DNA of 64,000 nucleotides from Halogranum gelatinilyticum (GTDB lineage: Archaea > Halobacteriota > Halobacteria > Halobacteriales > Haloferacaceae), in the NCBI RefSeq assembly GCF_900103715.1, contig NZ_FNHL01000001.1:911295-975294 (forward strand). Reading direction: 5' to 3'. Below are positions 7,210 to 34,743 of this stretch, one piece after another. A model generated the notes under the pieces. The model saw only the letters and a program-made list of their open reading frames with translations, had not been told where the DNA came from and did no database searches. Positions within the stretch are counted from its first letter, which is position 1; the number at the start of each line of letters is the position of its first letter. Position numbers and translations under genes: made by a program.

Positions 7210-8010
7210 TTAGTGGGGTTCCGCGATGCCCTGCACCCAGACGATACCGATGTGGATCGCGATGAGCGTCGTCACCACGAAGGGGAGCAGGAACACGTGT
7301 AAGATGTACATCCGTTGCAACGTTGCCTGGCTTAGGGTGAAGCCACCGAAGAGCAGCTGGGCGACCCACTCGCCAGCGAGCGGGATCGAGAGCGACATCT
7401 CGACGCCGATCTGGCCGGCCCAGAACGCCAGCTGGTCCCACGGCAGCAGGTAGCCGGTGTATCCGAACACCATCGTCAGGCTGATCAGGATGATGCCGAG
7501 GATCCAGTTCAGTTCACGCGGCTCCTTGTACGAGCCGGTGAAGTAGACCCGCAGCATGTGCAGGAACACGGCCGCGACCATCACCTGTGCCGCCCAGCGG
7601 TGGACGGAACGGAGCATGAACCCGAACTGGAGGTCCTGCATGATGAACGCGATGCTGTTGTAGGCGACGGTCGCCTCCTCGGGGTTCCCCTGTGCTGGGG
7701 AGTAGTAGAACCCGAGCAACGCGCCGCTCACGGCGGCCACAATATACGACAGGGTCGAGAACAACCCGAGCGTATACAGCGGATACCAGTACCAGAACTT
7801 GTTGTCGAGGTTGTACTGTTCGGTGTGGCTCTTCGGCATCTGGAGGTTGACCCGGTAGTAGAGGGTCTCCAGCAGCTCCAGATAGTCGACGATGCGGAGT
7901 CGCTTGTCGAGCCAGATGAGGGTGGTCAGGAACGTCGTCTCGACGGGCGACAGATCCTTCGTCTTCATCCAGCCCTTGTGATCGTAGTCGTCTTTCTTCT
8001 CTAAACTCAT
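7210..8010 (-). CDS. petB: cytochrome bc complex, cytochrome b N-terminal (b6-type) subunit
   Basis: 266 aa with a hydrophilic N-terminus of about 80 residues and four membrane helices. Heme-ligand histidine candidates appear in the second helix (SVHRWAAQVMVAAVFLHMLR, about residues 135-155) and the fourth (ILHVFLLPFVVTTLIAIHIG), the two-heme pattern of cytochrome b. A conserved Qo-side stretch reads GYTGYLLPWDQLAFW. The gene lies between a small membrane protein (DUF7318-like) and the C-terminal cytochrome b subunit, 4 bp apart on both sides, so one transcript is expected. Function: quinol oxidation and electron bifurcation in the cell membrane. Confidence 0.93.
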   Translation of the reverse strand: MSLEKKDDYDHKGWMKTKDLSPVETTFLTTLIWLDKRLRIVDYLELLETLYYRVNLQMPKSHTEQYNLDNKFWYWYPLYTLGLFSTLSYIVAAVSGALLGFYYSPAQGNPEEATVAYNSIAFIMQDLQFGFMLRSVHRWAAQVMVAAVFLHMLRVYFTGSYKEPRELNWILGIILISLTMVFGYTGYLLPWDQLAFWAGQIGVEMSLSIPLAGEWVAQLLFGGFTLSQATLQRMYILHVFLLPFVVTTLIAIHIGIVWVQGIAEPH

Positions 8011-8013
8011 TGG

Positions 8014-8403
8014 TTACCTCTTGTAGTAGGGGTAGACGGCGCGCTTGACCGTGTCCCAGGCGTCCGCGCTACCGATCTGGTTGCCGTCGACGTCCTCCTC
8101 GCGGACGTAGAGGTCTTCCCACTTGCGACGACGCTTCTTGACGATCATCACGTCGGGGAGGAACTCCTTGCGGTACAGTGCGAGGATGAACGCGAGGTCG
8201 ACGAAGACCACCGCGAGGATACCACCGAGGAACATGTTCCCGGTGTCGCTCAACGCCCATCCCGAGATGAGACCGTACGTGAACAGGAACACGAACAGGA
8301 CCTCGATGACCGTCAGGAGGACGATGGCGATGGCCGCTGCGGTGCTCTCGCGTGCCGGTTCGTACCGGTGGATGTCACCGTAGGTACTGCCGGTGGAGCT
8401 CAT
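8014..8403 (-). CDS. two-helix membrane protein of the bc-type cluster (DUF7318-like)
   Basis: 129 aa, two membrane segments (about residues 21-45 and 55-75) followed by a 50-residue cytoplasmic tail rich in basic and acidic residues (KKRRRKWEDLYVREEDVDG). The start ATG overlaps the halocyanin stop in an ATGA arrangement (8400-8403), so translation is probably coupled. It lies directly before cytochrome b. No redox motif is visible. Probably a structural subunit of the complex; inference from conserved position. Family number recalled from memory. Confidence 0.75.
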   Translation of the reverse strand: MSSTGSTYGDIHRYEPARESTAAAIAIVLLTVIEVLFVFLFTYGLISGWALSDTGNMFLGGILAVVFVDLAFILALYRKEFLPDVMIVKKRRRKWEDLYVREEDVDGNQIGSADAWDTVKRAVYPYYKR

Positions 8404-31249: not shown

Positions 31250-31322
31250 AGTCCCGTGGTGTAGCGGCCAATCATCTGGGCCTTTGGAGCCTAGGACACC
31301 GGTTCGAATCCGGTCGGGACTA
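31250..31322 (+). tRNA. tRNA-Gln (anticodon TTG)
   Basis: Folds into a standard cloverleaf. The acceptor stem AGTCCCG pairs with CGGGACT; the D-stem is GTG/CAT; the anticodon stem TGGGC/GCCTA encloses the loop CTTTGGA with anticodon TTG reading CAA; the T-stem ACCGG/CCGGT has loop TTCGAAT. Discriminator base A; CCA is not encoded. No intron. 73 nt. It lies immediately before the low-GC cassette at 31.6-33.8 kb, a typical position for integrated DNA. Confidence 0.93.
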
Positions 31323-31641
31323 TTTCTCCGAACGACAATAGCTATTAGTCGAGACTACTGTGGGCGCGTCTCCGAGGTCGTCTGCGACTATAGACTGCTG
31401 ACCCACCGGACCTCGAGGAGTCGTACGAGGAGGGCATCCGTCGGGATTGTCGTATCACTCACTGCAGGCGATTGATCTGCCGAACTGCGTCGCGACAGCC
31501 TGGTCCCGCCATCGGACAGAGACGGCGGGAAAACGTATAGCGTAATTGAGTGGTTCCGTTCCCGAGGGTGCCGCTCTCTGCTGTAAGTAGTGTTGACACA
31601 GTGCTAACACTTATTGGCGTCTAATCGAACTGAAACACAGT
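31323..31641. other. 319-bp gap after tRNA-Gln
   Basis: No supported gene. Base composition falls toward the right. I searched for a second copy of the tRNA 3' end (an attachment-site duplicate) between here and 34.3 kb and saw none. The last 50 bases hold the promoter and inverted repeat of the cassette. Confidence 0.5.
31589..31617 (+). promoter_or_regulatory. cassette promoter with inverted repeat
   Basis: The inverted repeat AGTGTT-n11-AACACT (31589-31594 and 31606-31611) abuts and partly overlaps the TATA-like cacttattg (31609-31617), which is about 27 nt before the ATG at 31642. A protein on this site would mask the promoter, so repression is the natural reading. Confidence 0.45.
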
Positions 31642-32754
31642 ATGTCGAACAGGTATCGTGTTCTCTTTGTCTTGACTATACTTTGCCTCGGCTCTCTGGG
31701 CGTCGTTGGCGGTTCGGCAAGTCCATGGATGCTACCGAATGAAGAATGCAAACCTGGTGAAAACATGGAGACGAAGGCGAAGAACGGCGACATTTGGGTG
31801 TCTGTCTCCGAATTCGGTGGGAGAGACGGGCTGTTGGAACACTACGAAGACCCAGACGTGCAGAATCTACTGAGGGACTTCCCTAATGGGGAAATCTGGG
31901 TAGATACTGAAAACGTACTGTGGGTCGTCAGTGATGGAGAACAGCACAGCACCCAGGTTCAGCCTGGAGACCAACTCGATGGTATCTTCTGTGACGTGTA
32001 CGACGGTACTGTCGACAAGCTGAATGCACCTCCACACGTGGACCCGGAAGGTGCGATACCGCTACCCGTCGACGGTTGCAGACCTGGTGGAAATGTCGAT
32101 GCGGTTTCTAGGAACGGTCGCATCGTGGTACCCGGTTCCGAGTTTGGTGGGAGAGACGAGTTGCTGGACCACTACGAAGATTCAGCTGTTCAAGAGCTAC
32201 TGAGAGCGTACCCCAATGGTGATGTGTCGGTAGATAACAGCAACGTGCTTCGAGTTGTTAGTGATGGGGAAGAATACCGTACCCAAGTCAACCCCGGGGA
32301 CCAGGTTGATGGTATCTTCTGTGACGTGTACGACGGTACCGTCGACAAGCAAAATGCACCGAGTACGCCAACCCCGACTGCAACGCCCACGCCGACACCG
32401 ACTGCAACGCCCACGCCGACGCCGACGCCAACACCCACGCCGACGCCGACGCCGACGCCAACACCGGAGCAGTCCGAATCGGTTACTACCAGAGCACCGG
32501 CTCAGACGGCGGAAGCAACATCTTCGCCAGCCTCTACCGCTGAACAGACCAACTCCTCTGCGGAGTCGCAGATCGAAGGTGGCCAAACGAGAGATGGAGT
32601 CGTTCCGGCCCGCAACTCCGAATCGTTCAGAGGCTTCGTCGGAAGCGTACTGTCCGGGATTCTCTCAACGGAGGCTCTCGTCGTCGTCGGAATGTCTGTC
32701 ATCGTCGTGATGATTGTCTTGACGTGGCCGGAGAACGGTGATGAACGTCTCTGA
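31642..32754 (+). CDS. exported, C-terminally anchored protein with two copies of an unrecognised domain
   Basis: 370 aa. Sec signal peptide at residues 1-26 (VLFVLTILCLGSLGVVGGSA). Two tandem domains follow with an exact period of 110 residues; each has Cys at its start and near its end (Cys36/Cys117 and Cys146/Cys227), probably one disulfide per copy. Shared core: EFGGRD-LL-HYED, NGE-like VD-NVL-VVSDGE and PGDQ-DGIFCDVYDGTVDK. A Thr-Pro linker (about 241-275) and a Ser/Thr-rich stretch lead to a membrane helix at about 343-362. Hence an extracellular double-domain head on a stalk. I recognise no family. It starts an operon with two membrane proteins and has lower GC than its surroundings, suggesting acquisition. 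Confidence 0.75.
   Translation: MSNRYRVLFVLTILCLGSLGVVGGSASPWMLPNEECKPGENMETKAKNGDIWVSVSEFGGRDGLLEHYEDPDVQNLLRDFPNGEIWVDTENVLWVVSDGEQHSTQVQPGDQLDGIFCDVYDGTVDKLNAPPHVDPEGAIPLPVDGCRPGGNVDAVSRNGRIVVPGSEFGGRDELLDHYEDSAVQELLRAYPNGDVSVDNSNVLRVVSDGEEYRTQVNPGDQVDGIFCDVYDGTVDKQNAPSTPTPTATPTPTPTATPTPTPTPTPTPTPTPTPTPEQSESVTTRAPAQTAEATSSPASTAEQTNSSAESQIEGGQTRDGVVPARNSESFRGFVGSVLSGILSTEALVVVGMSVIVVMIVLTWPENGDERL
31978..32350 (+). repeat. 330-bp spaced direct repeat inside the exported protein gene
   Basis: Bases 31978-32009 and 32308-32339 are identical over 32 bp; one mismatch and ten more identical bases follow. The rest of the two 330-bp units is diverged at DNA level but alignable at protein level, so this patch may be kept alike by gene conversion or strong selection. 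Confidence 0.8.
32362..32465 (+). repeat. Thr-Pro codon tandem repeats (linker)
   Basis: Short-period tandem units built from ccgacgccaacacccacg encode an alternating Thr-Pro stalk. Prone to slippage; not a CRISPR. Confidence 0.8.
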
Positions 32755-33007
32755 GGCAGTCGAGATACTGTGGCCCGCACTGTTTTCGCTTGCCGCATTT
32801 CTGCTATATCTACTCGTCGTTTCGCGCGGTGGGTACACCAGAGCCAAAGGCTTCGTGGGTGCGGGTGCCGTAATCGGGTTCTTACTGCTGGGGCACTTTC
32901 AGCCATCGGTACTGGTCCCGCTCAGAGTGTCGCTTACGCTGGTCGGGTTCGCCGCTCCAGTCGCGATGAGCATCATTGGTATCCGATATATCGTCGATAA
33001 GGCATGA
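32741..33007 (+). CDS. small three-helix membrane protein of the tRNA-adjacent cassette
   Basis: 88 aa starting MNVSEAVEIL (a GTG one codon upstream is possible). Three membrane segments: about 9-28 (LWPALFSLAAFLLYLLVV), 38-53 (GFVGAGAVIGFLLLG) and 61-83. Its start lies 14 bp inside the exported-protein gene and its end overlaps the next gene by 4 bp (ATGA), so all three proteins are made from one mRNA with coupled translation. No family recognised. Confidence 0.7.
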   Translation: MNVSEAVEILWPALFSLAAFLLYLLVVSRGGYTRAKGFVGAGAVIGFLLLGHFQPSVLVPLRVSLTLVGFAAPVAMSIIGIRYIVDKA

Positions 33008-33837
33008 TCGGACACGGACCACTCCAGCTCGCCACTTTTCTGGAAGTCCTTCCGGCGTGGTTGCCGGTCGTGACGATCTCCCTCGGAATCTGCTTACTCC
33101 TTACGGGGATGAGTAACCAGTATCTCTCGTCGTATATCGGCCATTGGCCAGCGTACAACGGGTTAGTCGGGGTCGTGTTGACCGGGTCAATCACTGGAAG
33201 CGTTGCTGGTGCGACCTACCTGACTATCGTTCGATCGGACCTGCTCCTTCTGTTCGTGTTCTTCACGTTTGTCAGCGGCCAACTGATACAGGGTGCCGTC
33301 GCTGCTCGTGTTATCGAGAAGATCGTGACTGTGCTGTCGGAGATATCGAAGGCGGTGTCAGGAGAGGCCGGAGGCCCTGGACAGCATGGGTCGGCCACCG
33401 TCCGTCACTATCTCACTCTCGGTGTCGAGTATCTGGTCGGGAAGATGAAAGACCGGCTCCTCATCTTCTTGGTTACCGGTGTCATCTCGGCATACACGAC
33501 ACTCACCATCGTTGCCGTCTTCGTCGTTGGCGATGGGCACGTGCTCGAGGCAATCGAACGGTTCTGGACCGGTTTCCTCCTGCTCACCATCGCCGGGGTG
33601 GCATTCGACTTCCGCTATTTCGCACACAGAGTATCCTACACCGCTGCGCTCGGGTTGGTGATTGCGGCAAGCGGCGCGTTCCTCTACAGCCCTGTCGGAT
33701 TCTCGAATCTCACCGGGGCGTTAGCACCGTATCTGGAGAACCCGATACCCGACTGGATGCGGCTTCCGCTGGGTGCGTTCGGGTTCTTCGCTGGTGTCGT
33801 ACTTTGGTCGTTCTTCTACATGAAGTTGAATCGCTGA
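33004..33837 (+). CDS. polytopic membrane protein of the tRNA-adjacent cassette
   Basis: 277 aa with about seven membrane segments: near residues 8-36, 49-73, 78-98, 150-175, 188-208, 215-235 and 250-273. A cytoplasmic loop of about 45 residues between segments 3 and 4 contains a helix (VIEKIVTVLSEISKAVSG) and a Gly-rich bend. Few charged residues occur in the helices apart from FDFRYFAHR before segment 6. No transporter, kinase or protease motif is recognised. It is the last gene of the cassette, overlapping the 88-aa protein by 4 bp. It presumably forms a membrane complex with the other two; inference from overlap only. Confidence 0.7.
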   Translation: MIGHGPLQLATFLEVLPAWLPVVTISLGICLLLTGMSNQYLSSYIGHWPAYNGLVGVVLTGSITGSVAGATYLTIVRSDLLLLFVFFTFVSGQLIQGAVAARVIEKIVTVLSEISKAVSGEAGGPGQHGSATVRHYLTLGVEYLVGKMKDRLLIFLVTGVISAYTTLTIVAVFVVGDGHVLEAIERFWTGFLLLTIAGVAFDFRYFAHRVSYTAALGLVIAASGAFLYSPVGFSNLTGALAPYLENPIPDWMRLPLGAFGFFAGVVLWSFFYMKLNR

Positions 33838-34330
33838 GGGAGACGACCGACATCGACTTCTCGCACTGCGGTTCTTCGAGGGAACTGAACCGCCCCCACG
33901 CCAGTTTCTCTGCCACTGGACCACGCCACGACAACTGGCCGACGGACGCGACTCTCGAGTCGGACCCGAACTCGAGCGACGTGGAGTACGAAAAGACGCC
34001 GTGCCGACACGGGGAGGAGCGAACCGTCGTCGACACCGTGAGCGAACGGACGTCACGAGCGCGCTTGAGGAGTAACCCGCTTACCGTTCTATGAATTCCA
34101 CCGTCGTACTTGGGCCGCGACCACTTTCACCCGTCTCCCGCTCGGTTCGTCCGCTCGGGATGCCGAGAGGCCGTGTGGCGGAATCAGGGGGTAGATACCG
34201 TCGTCGTGGCTGTTCCGTCGAGATTCGGTCGGTGGGGACGACCGACGGTCGCTGTCACGAACTCCAGGTTCACTTCCACCGAGCACGTCTGGATTCGAGT
34301 TTTTACTATCCCCGCCGTCCGGGTCAACCG
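33838..34330. other. 493-bp gap with no supported gene
   Basis: Open frames here have atypical composition and no promoter. One feature stands out: a perfect 7-bp inverted repeat CTCGAGT-n9-ACTCGAG at 33954-33976, without a T-run, which could be a hairpin or a binding site. A TATA-like gagtttttact at about 34297-34307 belongs to the next gene. Confidence 0.45.
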
Positions 34331-34585
34331 ATGACGAAGGAAGTCGTCCGAATCCAGGACCGACGTGACCGCTGGCGGTTCGTCTGTCCACGTGGCCACC
34401 GAAGCTGGGAACCAACCAACCACCATTTCTGGTGTCAGCAGTGTGCGTCGACGTTCGACGTCGAGGCGACGTTCGACGAACTCCGAGACCAGAAGACGGG
34501 CAGGTCCGTCGGCCGTCGGCAGGTCCGACTCGTCACGCCGGTTGGGCCGTACGACGCCGATCTGGATGAAGAGGAGTCCAGGTGA
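34331..34585 (+). CDS. small zinc-finger-like protein
   Basis: 84 aa. MTKEVVRIQDRRDRWRFVCP begins a putative zinc site CPRGH-n10-WCQQC (Cys-x3-His and Cys-x2-Cys). The C-terminal half is charged (FDELRDQKTGRSVGRRQVRL). The frame continues upstream for 80 codons, but a TATA-like gagtttttact 27 nt before this ATG shows that the gene starts here. Possibly a nucleic-acid-binding protein; function unknown. Position next to the MC1 chromatin gene is noted without implying a link. Confidence 0.7.
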   Translation: MTKEVVRIQDRRDRWRFVCPRGHRSWEPTNHHFWCQQCASTFDVEATFDELRDQKTGRSVGRRQVRLVTPVGPYDADLDEEESR

Positions 34586-34743
34586 GTACCGTCACCGGAC
34601 TCAGTGACTTCACCGACAGTTCGCATCGCTTCGACACCGTGCGGTTCGATACCGTGCGGCGTGAACCCGGTCGCCACGTGAGCGAGTGCGCGGATAGCAG
34701 TCGCTCACCGTCGCTGTGGCGGGGCGCGAAAATCCGGGGCGTC

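Follow-up and report, generated by a model that had tools for sequence, protein, structure and literature searches.

What function do three overlapping genes serve that sit beside a tRNA gene of the haloarchaeon Halogranum gelatinilyticum and whose products look like parts of a cell-surface system? In the 64,000-nucleotide stretch of DNA that we analyzed, referred to here as the window, all three are read from the forward strand: ORF1 (31642-32754) encodes a predicted exported and stalked protein of 370 residues; ORF2 (32741-33007), starting with an ATG at position 32741, encodes a predicted membrane protein of 88 residues with three transmembrane (TM) helices; and ORF3 (33004-33837) encodes a 277-residue protein predicted to cross the membrane seven times with its N-terminus outside and its C-terminus inside. 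ORF1 and ORF2 share 14 bp (32741-32754) and ORF2 and ORF3 share 4 bp (33004-33007; ATGA), in agreement with the coordinates, order and overlaps given in a preliminary description of this DNA, whose conclusion from the overlaps that the trio forms one translational unit is supported. A possible archaeal TATA-like element (CTTATT; 31610-31615, forward strand), inferred from reading the sequence, lies about 30 nt upstream of the ORF1 ATG. The trio has the lowest GC content of the window, 56.8% versus 64.8% for the whole, and equally low values occur in just 1% of GC windows, all of which overlap it; its previously reported drop below the flanking DNA is thereby borne out by measurement.

The ORF1 protein combines a signal peptide-like start (residues 7-25), a Thr-Pro-rich stalk at about residues 240-275 and a single C-terminal TM anchor (residues 345-363). 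Its head consists of two tandem domains of about 100 residues each (31723-32052 and 32056-32361, both on the forward strand), which are 66% identical to each other and contain one pair of Cys residues apiece; the positions of these residues predict a disulfide in either domain. The outward-facing, stalked and membrane-anchored tandem-domain protein that had been suggested before is thus recovered in our predictions of the N-terminal signal, the repeats and the C-terminal helix. When the two domains were compared with each other (repeat DNA 31731-32030 and 32061-32360), their differences proved to be mostly silent, and this low dN (0.22) relative to dS (1.18) argues for constraint at the protein level, and consequently for a selected gene and not a chance open reading frame. 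Pfam, NCBIfam and PADLOC hold no family for ORF1, yielding just low-complexity matches to its stalk, and about 440 haloarchaeal genome searches, as well as searches of viral contigs and plasmids, found no relative of the tandem domain. Weak matches to it (E 0.0015-0.1) were set aside as chance; those in-frame ones that were inspected lie in CBS-domain, acidic or out-of-context stretches. The AF2 model of domain 1 reached a pLDDT of 57 (67-80 in the core), and Foldseek found no fold match for it (best E 0.71).

The TM helices and topology of the trio proteins were predicted by hydropathy alone. This procedure yields three helices for ORF2 and about seven for ORF3, whose window copy is cut by raw hydropathy into eight segments, one of them weak; most of its near relatives show seven. 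In the relatives examined, the positive-inside pattern places the ORF3 N-terminus outside and the C-terminus, together with a basic TM3-TM4 loop, inside. These numbers agree with the three-helix and seven-helix proteins without known motif of the preliminary description. Nothing above noise was returned for ORF2 or ORF3 by Pfam, NCBIfam and PADLOC, no family was assigned by Pfam to five further ORF3 relatives or ten distant ones, and a sequence comparison with solved structures gave no match; the verdict of an unrecognized family therefore stands for all three products. A structure prediction for ORF3 from four sequences was unusable (pLDDT 47.8), and we found no description of the trio in the open-access literature.

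Does this gene arrangement recur? Relatives of ORF3 were first found in three genomes, G280, G020 (Haloarcula argentinensis) and G275 (Haloferax sulfurifontis), then with profiles in 12 and later in 19 of 392 haloarchaeal genomes, all genome samples being drawn from a larger group; among 393 genomes sampled across the phylum, there was no ORF3 match outside the haloarchaeal order. No ORF3 relative was found in viral contigs, and none of the window ORF3 or ORF1 on plasmids. Haloferax, one of the ORF3-bearing relatives, belongs to the same family as the window organism. All eight near-clade genomes inspected (the window, G280, G020, G372, G275, G311, G209 and Haloferax massiliensis) possess the three-gene order, with an exported, TM-anchored protein encoded directly upstream of the ORF2-ORF3 pair; the recurring gene order that the preliminary description had proposed to look for consequently exists. 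In the near-clade relatives, a large protein that is exported and has a TM helix at its C-terminus precedes an ORF2-like membrane protein of 86-112 residues, which in turn precedes ORF3, and the junctions, with gene starts in the relatives set by eye, are mostly 4-bp overlaps or gaps of a few bases. An ORF2 profile found a match adjoining ORF3 in eight of the eight ORF3-bearing genomes tested and nothing convincing in 20 ORF3-free genomes, where its one weak match lies inside a 508-residue frame and is probably due to chance. In the ORF3 tree, from which rows G236a and G308 were excluded, the window, G280, G020 and G372 form a clade with support of 100/100, and the ectodomain-linked rows all fall on one side of a branch with support of just 76/83. 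Frames that resemble transposase fragments lie just downstream of the trio in G372 (L036, 7908-8762).

The exported heads of these trios differ from each other. G280 carries a PQQ propeller with two PKD domains, G020 and G372 a PQQ-type propeller, Haloferax five PKD domains and G209 a combination of PQQ and PKD; the window head, an orphan tandem domain, is unlike any of these. Underneath, the anchor has been kept: the last 55 residues of the window ORF1 (32587-32751, forward strand) align with those of G280 at a score of 95 (shuffle mean 35.5) and with those of G372 at a score of 74 (shuffle mean 32.6), and neither value was reached by any of 500 shuffles that preserved the hydrophobic stretch. 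Comparisons with G020, G275 and G209 did not rise above shuffles, which restricts our claim of anchor homology to the window, G280 and G372; in both relatives, sequence comparison indicates that the anchor is clearly homologous to that of the window but the ectodomain is not. The notion of one fixed cassette accordingly holds for ORF2 and ORF3 and, in the closest relatives, for the ORF1 anchor, but not for the ectodomain, which is exchanged. In Haloferax, the PKD-head gene (the ORF1 equivalents at L019, 5658-7574, and L044, 4987-6903) has a dS of 0.15, and the adjoining ORF2 and ORF3 have values of only 0.02 and 0.01, as though recombination had brought in the head on its own. Positive selection on this head was considered and rejected, since its faster divergence is accompanied by a raised dS that points to recombination.

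A conserved C-terminal anchor beneath unrelated heads would also fit a sorting tag recognized by its own processing enzyme. ORF2 and ORF3 could then serve as a platform that exports, anchors, processes or glycosylates ORF1 without any sensing, and Thr-rich stalks do invite glycosylation. We regard this as unlikely. In ORF3, neither Cys nor His forms a column at 80%, whether six near or eleven broad relatives are compared, and no Ser is conserved across its relatives, which leaves no sortase- or protease-like center; the heads use different export signals, Sec-like in the window and G020, whereas those of G372 and G209 start with a Tat-like RR; and distant pairs of the two membrane proteins have no adjoining surface protein. 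Archaeosortases, polytopic membrane proteins paired with surface proteins that share a C-terminal TM tag such as PGF-CTERM, offer a parallel to such an arrangement in that ORF3 is polytopic and ORF1 shares its C-terminal TM region with its closest relatives. However, ORF3 lacks the conserved catalytic Cys-Arg-His residues, and a PGF-type motif is absent before the C-terminal TM helix of ORF1 and its equivalents.

Other known systems share traits with the trio as well. The bacterial 7TMR-DISM and 7TMR-HD proteins are modular seven-TM receptors with extracellular ligand domains, and ORF3 resembles them in its seven helices, its predicted outside N-terminus and a variable extracellular binding part within a modular design. 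In the trio, however, the head is encoded by a separate gene and is not fused to ORF3, whose N-terminal segment ahead of TM1 comprises only about 14 residues; a three-TM protein is present as a third subunit; and just five residues follow the last TM helix of ORF3, with no match to a cytoplasmic signaling or enzyme domain. Pfam, including its search with the five further relatives, revealed no sequence relation to either family. Sensory rhodopsin is a haloarchaeal seven-TM protein that works with a membrane partner, the transducer HtrII, and ORF3, with its seven predicted helices and its adjacent membrane partner, is similar in this respect. Yet the last TM helix of ORF3 (residues 254-272) contains no Lys, and no Lys is conserved there in six relatives, so that the retinal-binding residue is missing; neither a chemotaxis domain nor a Pfam rhodopsin match was found. 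The ORF1 equivalents of the relatives are haloarchaeal PQQ-propeller or PKD surface proteins with a C-terminal TM helix, a kind to which the tandem domain of the window ORF1 does not belong, and we know of no such surface proteins that travel with a fixed pair of three-TM and seven-TM proteins. The failed tests for rhodopsin, 7TMR and archaeosortase speak against membership in these families and not against a similar way of working; judged by its build, the trio resembles a surface receptor of modular design that has so far gone undescribed.

The same build, an extracellular binding protein with two polytopic subunits and no cytoplasmic signaling domain, might alternatively be that of a transport complex in which ORF2 and ORF3 make up a channel or carrier whose substrate is captured or gated by the ectodomain. 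This is distinctly improbable, as the unit contains no ATPase gene, matches no known transporter family and includes an ORF3 with few conserved charged residues; to our knowledge, PQQ, PKD and orphan heads are moreover not known as solute-binding folds.

The membrane pair has a wider distribution than the trio. Profile comparison linked the near-clade ORF3 to a second set of seven-TM proteins (99.6%, E 1.6e-23), each likewise preceded by a small membrane protein and none adjoined by a surface-protein gene. For ORF2, the same comparison of near and distant pairs reached a probability of 28.8%, and homology between these small proteins is only suggestive. Independent occurrence of the genes, which the preliminary description had named as evidence against its view, was therefore encountered only in this distant subfamily, where the pair lacks an ectodomain gene; the near-clade order is intact. 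The pairs found on plasmids, namely those of Haloarcula, were all of the distant kind. In G250, the pair has as neighbors a DnaJ-like protein and a Ser/Thr kinase that weakly matches FHA, and in G337 it adjoins Hsp70/GrpE-like and TerY_C proteins; on a Haloarcula halophila plasmid (L109, 4452-6798), a pair is divergently oriented to a TRIP13-type AAA ATPase (PADLOC E 5.5e-61). Such neighbors suit a role in signaling or conflict, as judged from gene context. Two distant ORF3 relatives (L043, 4848-9382; L099, 4230-6847) end in a zinc ribbon (CPQCQQ...CPHCGHEL in L043), and a zinc ribbon of similar type also terminates proteins encoded next to distant relatives, which suggests a putative cytoplasmic complex tagged by zinc ribbons around the distant pair.

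These neighborhoods raise the question whether the trio itself might be a conflict or exclusion system, the head recognizing a virus, a vesicle or a mating partner and the two membrane proteins blocking entry or permeabilizing the membrane. Conflict systems often contain Hsp70/TerY_C, kinase and TRIP13-type genes, and a patchy presence, a variable locus and exchangeable heads would fit. Nevertheless, we consider this reading quite unlikely: none of ORF1 to ORF3 has a PADLOC match, no defense gene directly adjoins the ectodomain trios, and the defense-gene neighbors of distant relatives amount to weak guilt by association. In a paper on kinase- and GTPase-centered conflict systems (PMC7159879), a term search gave no seven-TM or three-TM pair.

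How did the trio come to its present position? It is carried by a strain-variable stretch of 3.4 kb (31329-34726) between the gene for tRNA-Gln (31250-31322), which lies upstream of ORF1, and the MC1 gene. Two genomes of the same genus, G392 and G393, have about 53 bp and about 525 bp, respectively, in its place, and neither contains an ORF3 relative anywhere; variable presence, which the preliminary description had proposed to check between strains, is thus evident at this very site among genomes of one genus. Its suggestion of DNA integrated via the tRNA gene found no support, given that a search between 31200 and 34900 found neither a second copy of the tRNA 3' end nor any att repeat and that none of the first three relatives found lies near a tRNA gene. 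Horizontal gain is nevertheless likely, since the nearest ORF3 kin of the window (clade support 100/100) reside in another family. Downstream of the trio, the variable stretch also encodes an 84-residue protein (34331-34585, forward strand) with zinc-knuckle-like motifs (VCPRGH, WCQQC) and no Pfam match. The insert of G393 (L092, about 7651-8177) is a different one of 0.5 kb that resembles a gene remnant; by this comparison, the tRNA-Gln site seems to be a place of recurrent insertion, with DNA coming and going.

Our data lend themselves to a tentative model that is well conceivable: a patchy, horizontally spread three-subunit surface receptor, in which an exchangeable head is mounted on a conserved membrane platform. 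ORF1 would be exported and kept on the outer side of the membrane through its C-terminal helix, and the two disulfide domains that its Thr-Pro stalk carries would bind an external target, be it a ligand, a surface or another cell. The anchor helix might then dock onto the platform formed by ORF2 and ORF3 and relay the binding state inward. That the platform and, in the closest relatives, the anchor were kept while the head was exchanged argues for one transduction unit adapted to different targets, with orphan tandem domains, PQQ propellers, propellers with PKD domains or PKD arrays as its heads, and the cassette would spread horizontally and patchily among haloarchaea. The previously proposed surface sensor or receptor is in this sense supported as an architecture, and signaling would be its presumed role: gene order, overlaps, ORF2-ORF3 linkage, the kept anchor beneath unrelated heads and patchiness are direct observations, whereas the physical complex, ligand binding, signaling and any step in the cytoplasm are presumed. 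The main weakness of the receptor model is that no trio protein has a recognizable cytoplasmic signaling domain. It is further weakened by the lack of a conserved partner gene beside the ectodomain trios, by the narrow range of the anchor homology, and by the low confidence of the ORF3 structure prediction.

Rather doubtful, but of broader consequence, is the idea of an archaeal receptor class: the seven-TM and three-TM proteins would act as a universal transducer onto which separate, exchangeable heads dock via a conserved helix, spread as a haloarchaeal cassette, and the same pair would also equip intracellular conflict systems, built on kinases or chaperones, with their membrane component. 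Little is known about how haloarchaea perceive surfaces, partners and viruses from the outside, and a portable unit of small size whose platform is fixed and whose heads are swapped would be directly testable. A function would thereby come to two protein families without a match in the libraries searched, and the occurrence of the same membrane pair beside kinase, Hsp70 and TRIP13-type genes offers a lead into archaeal conflict signaling.
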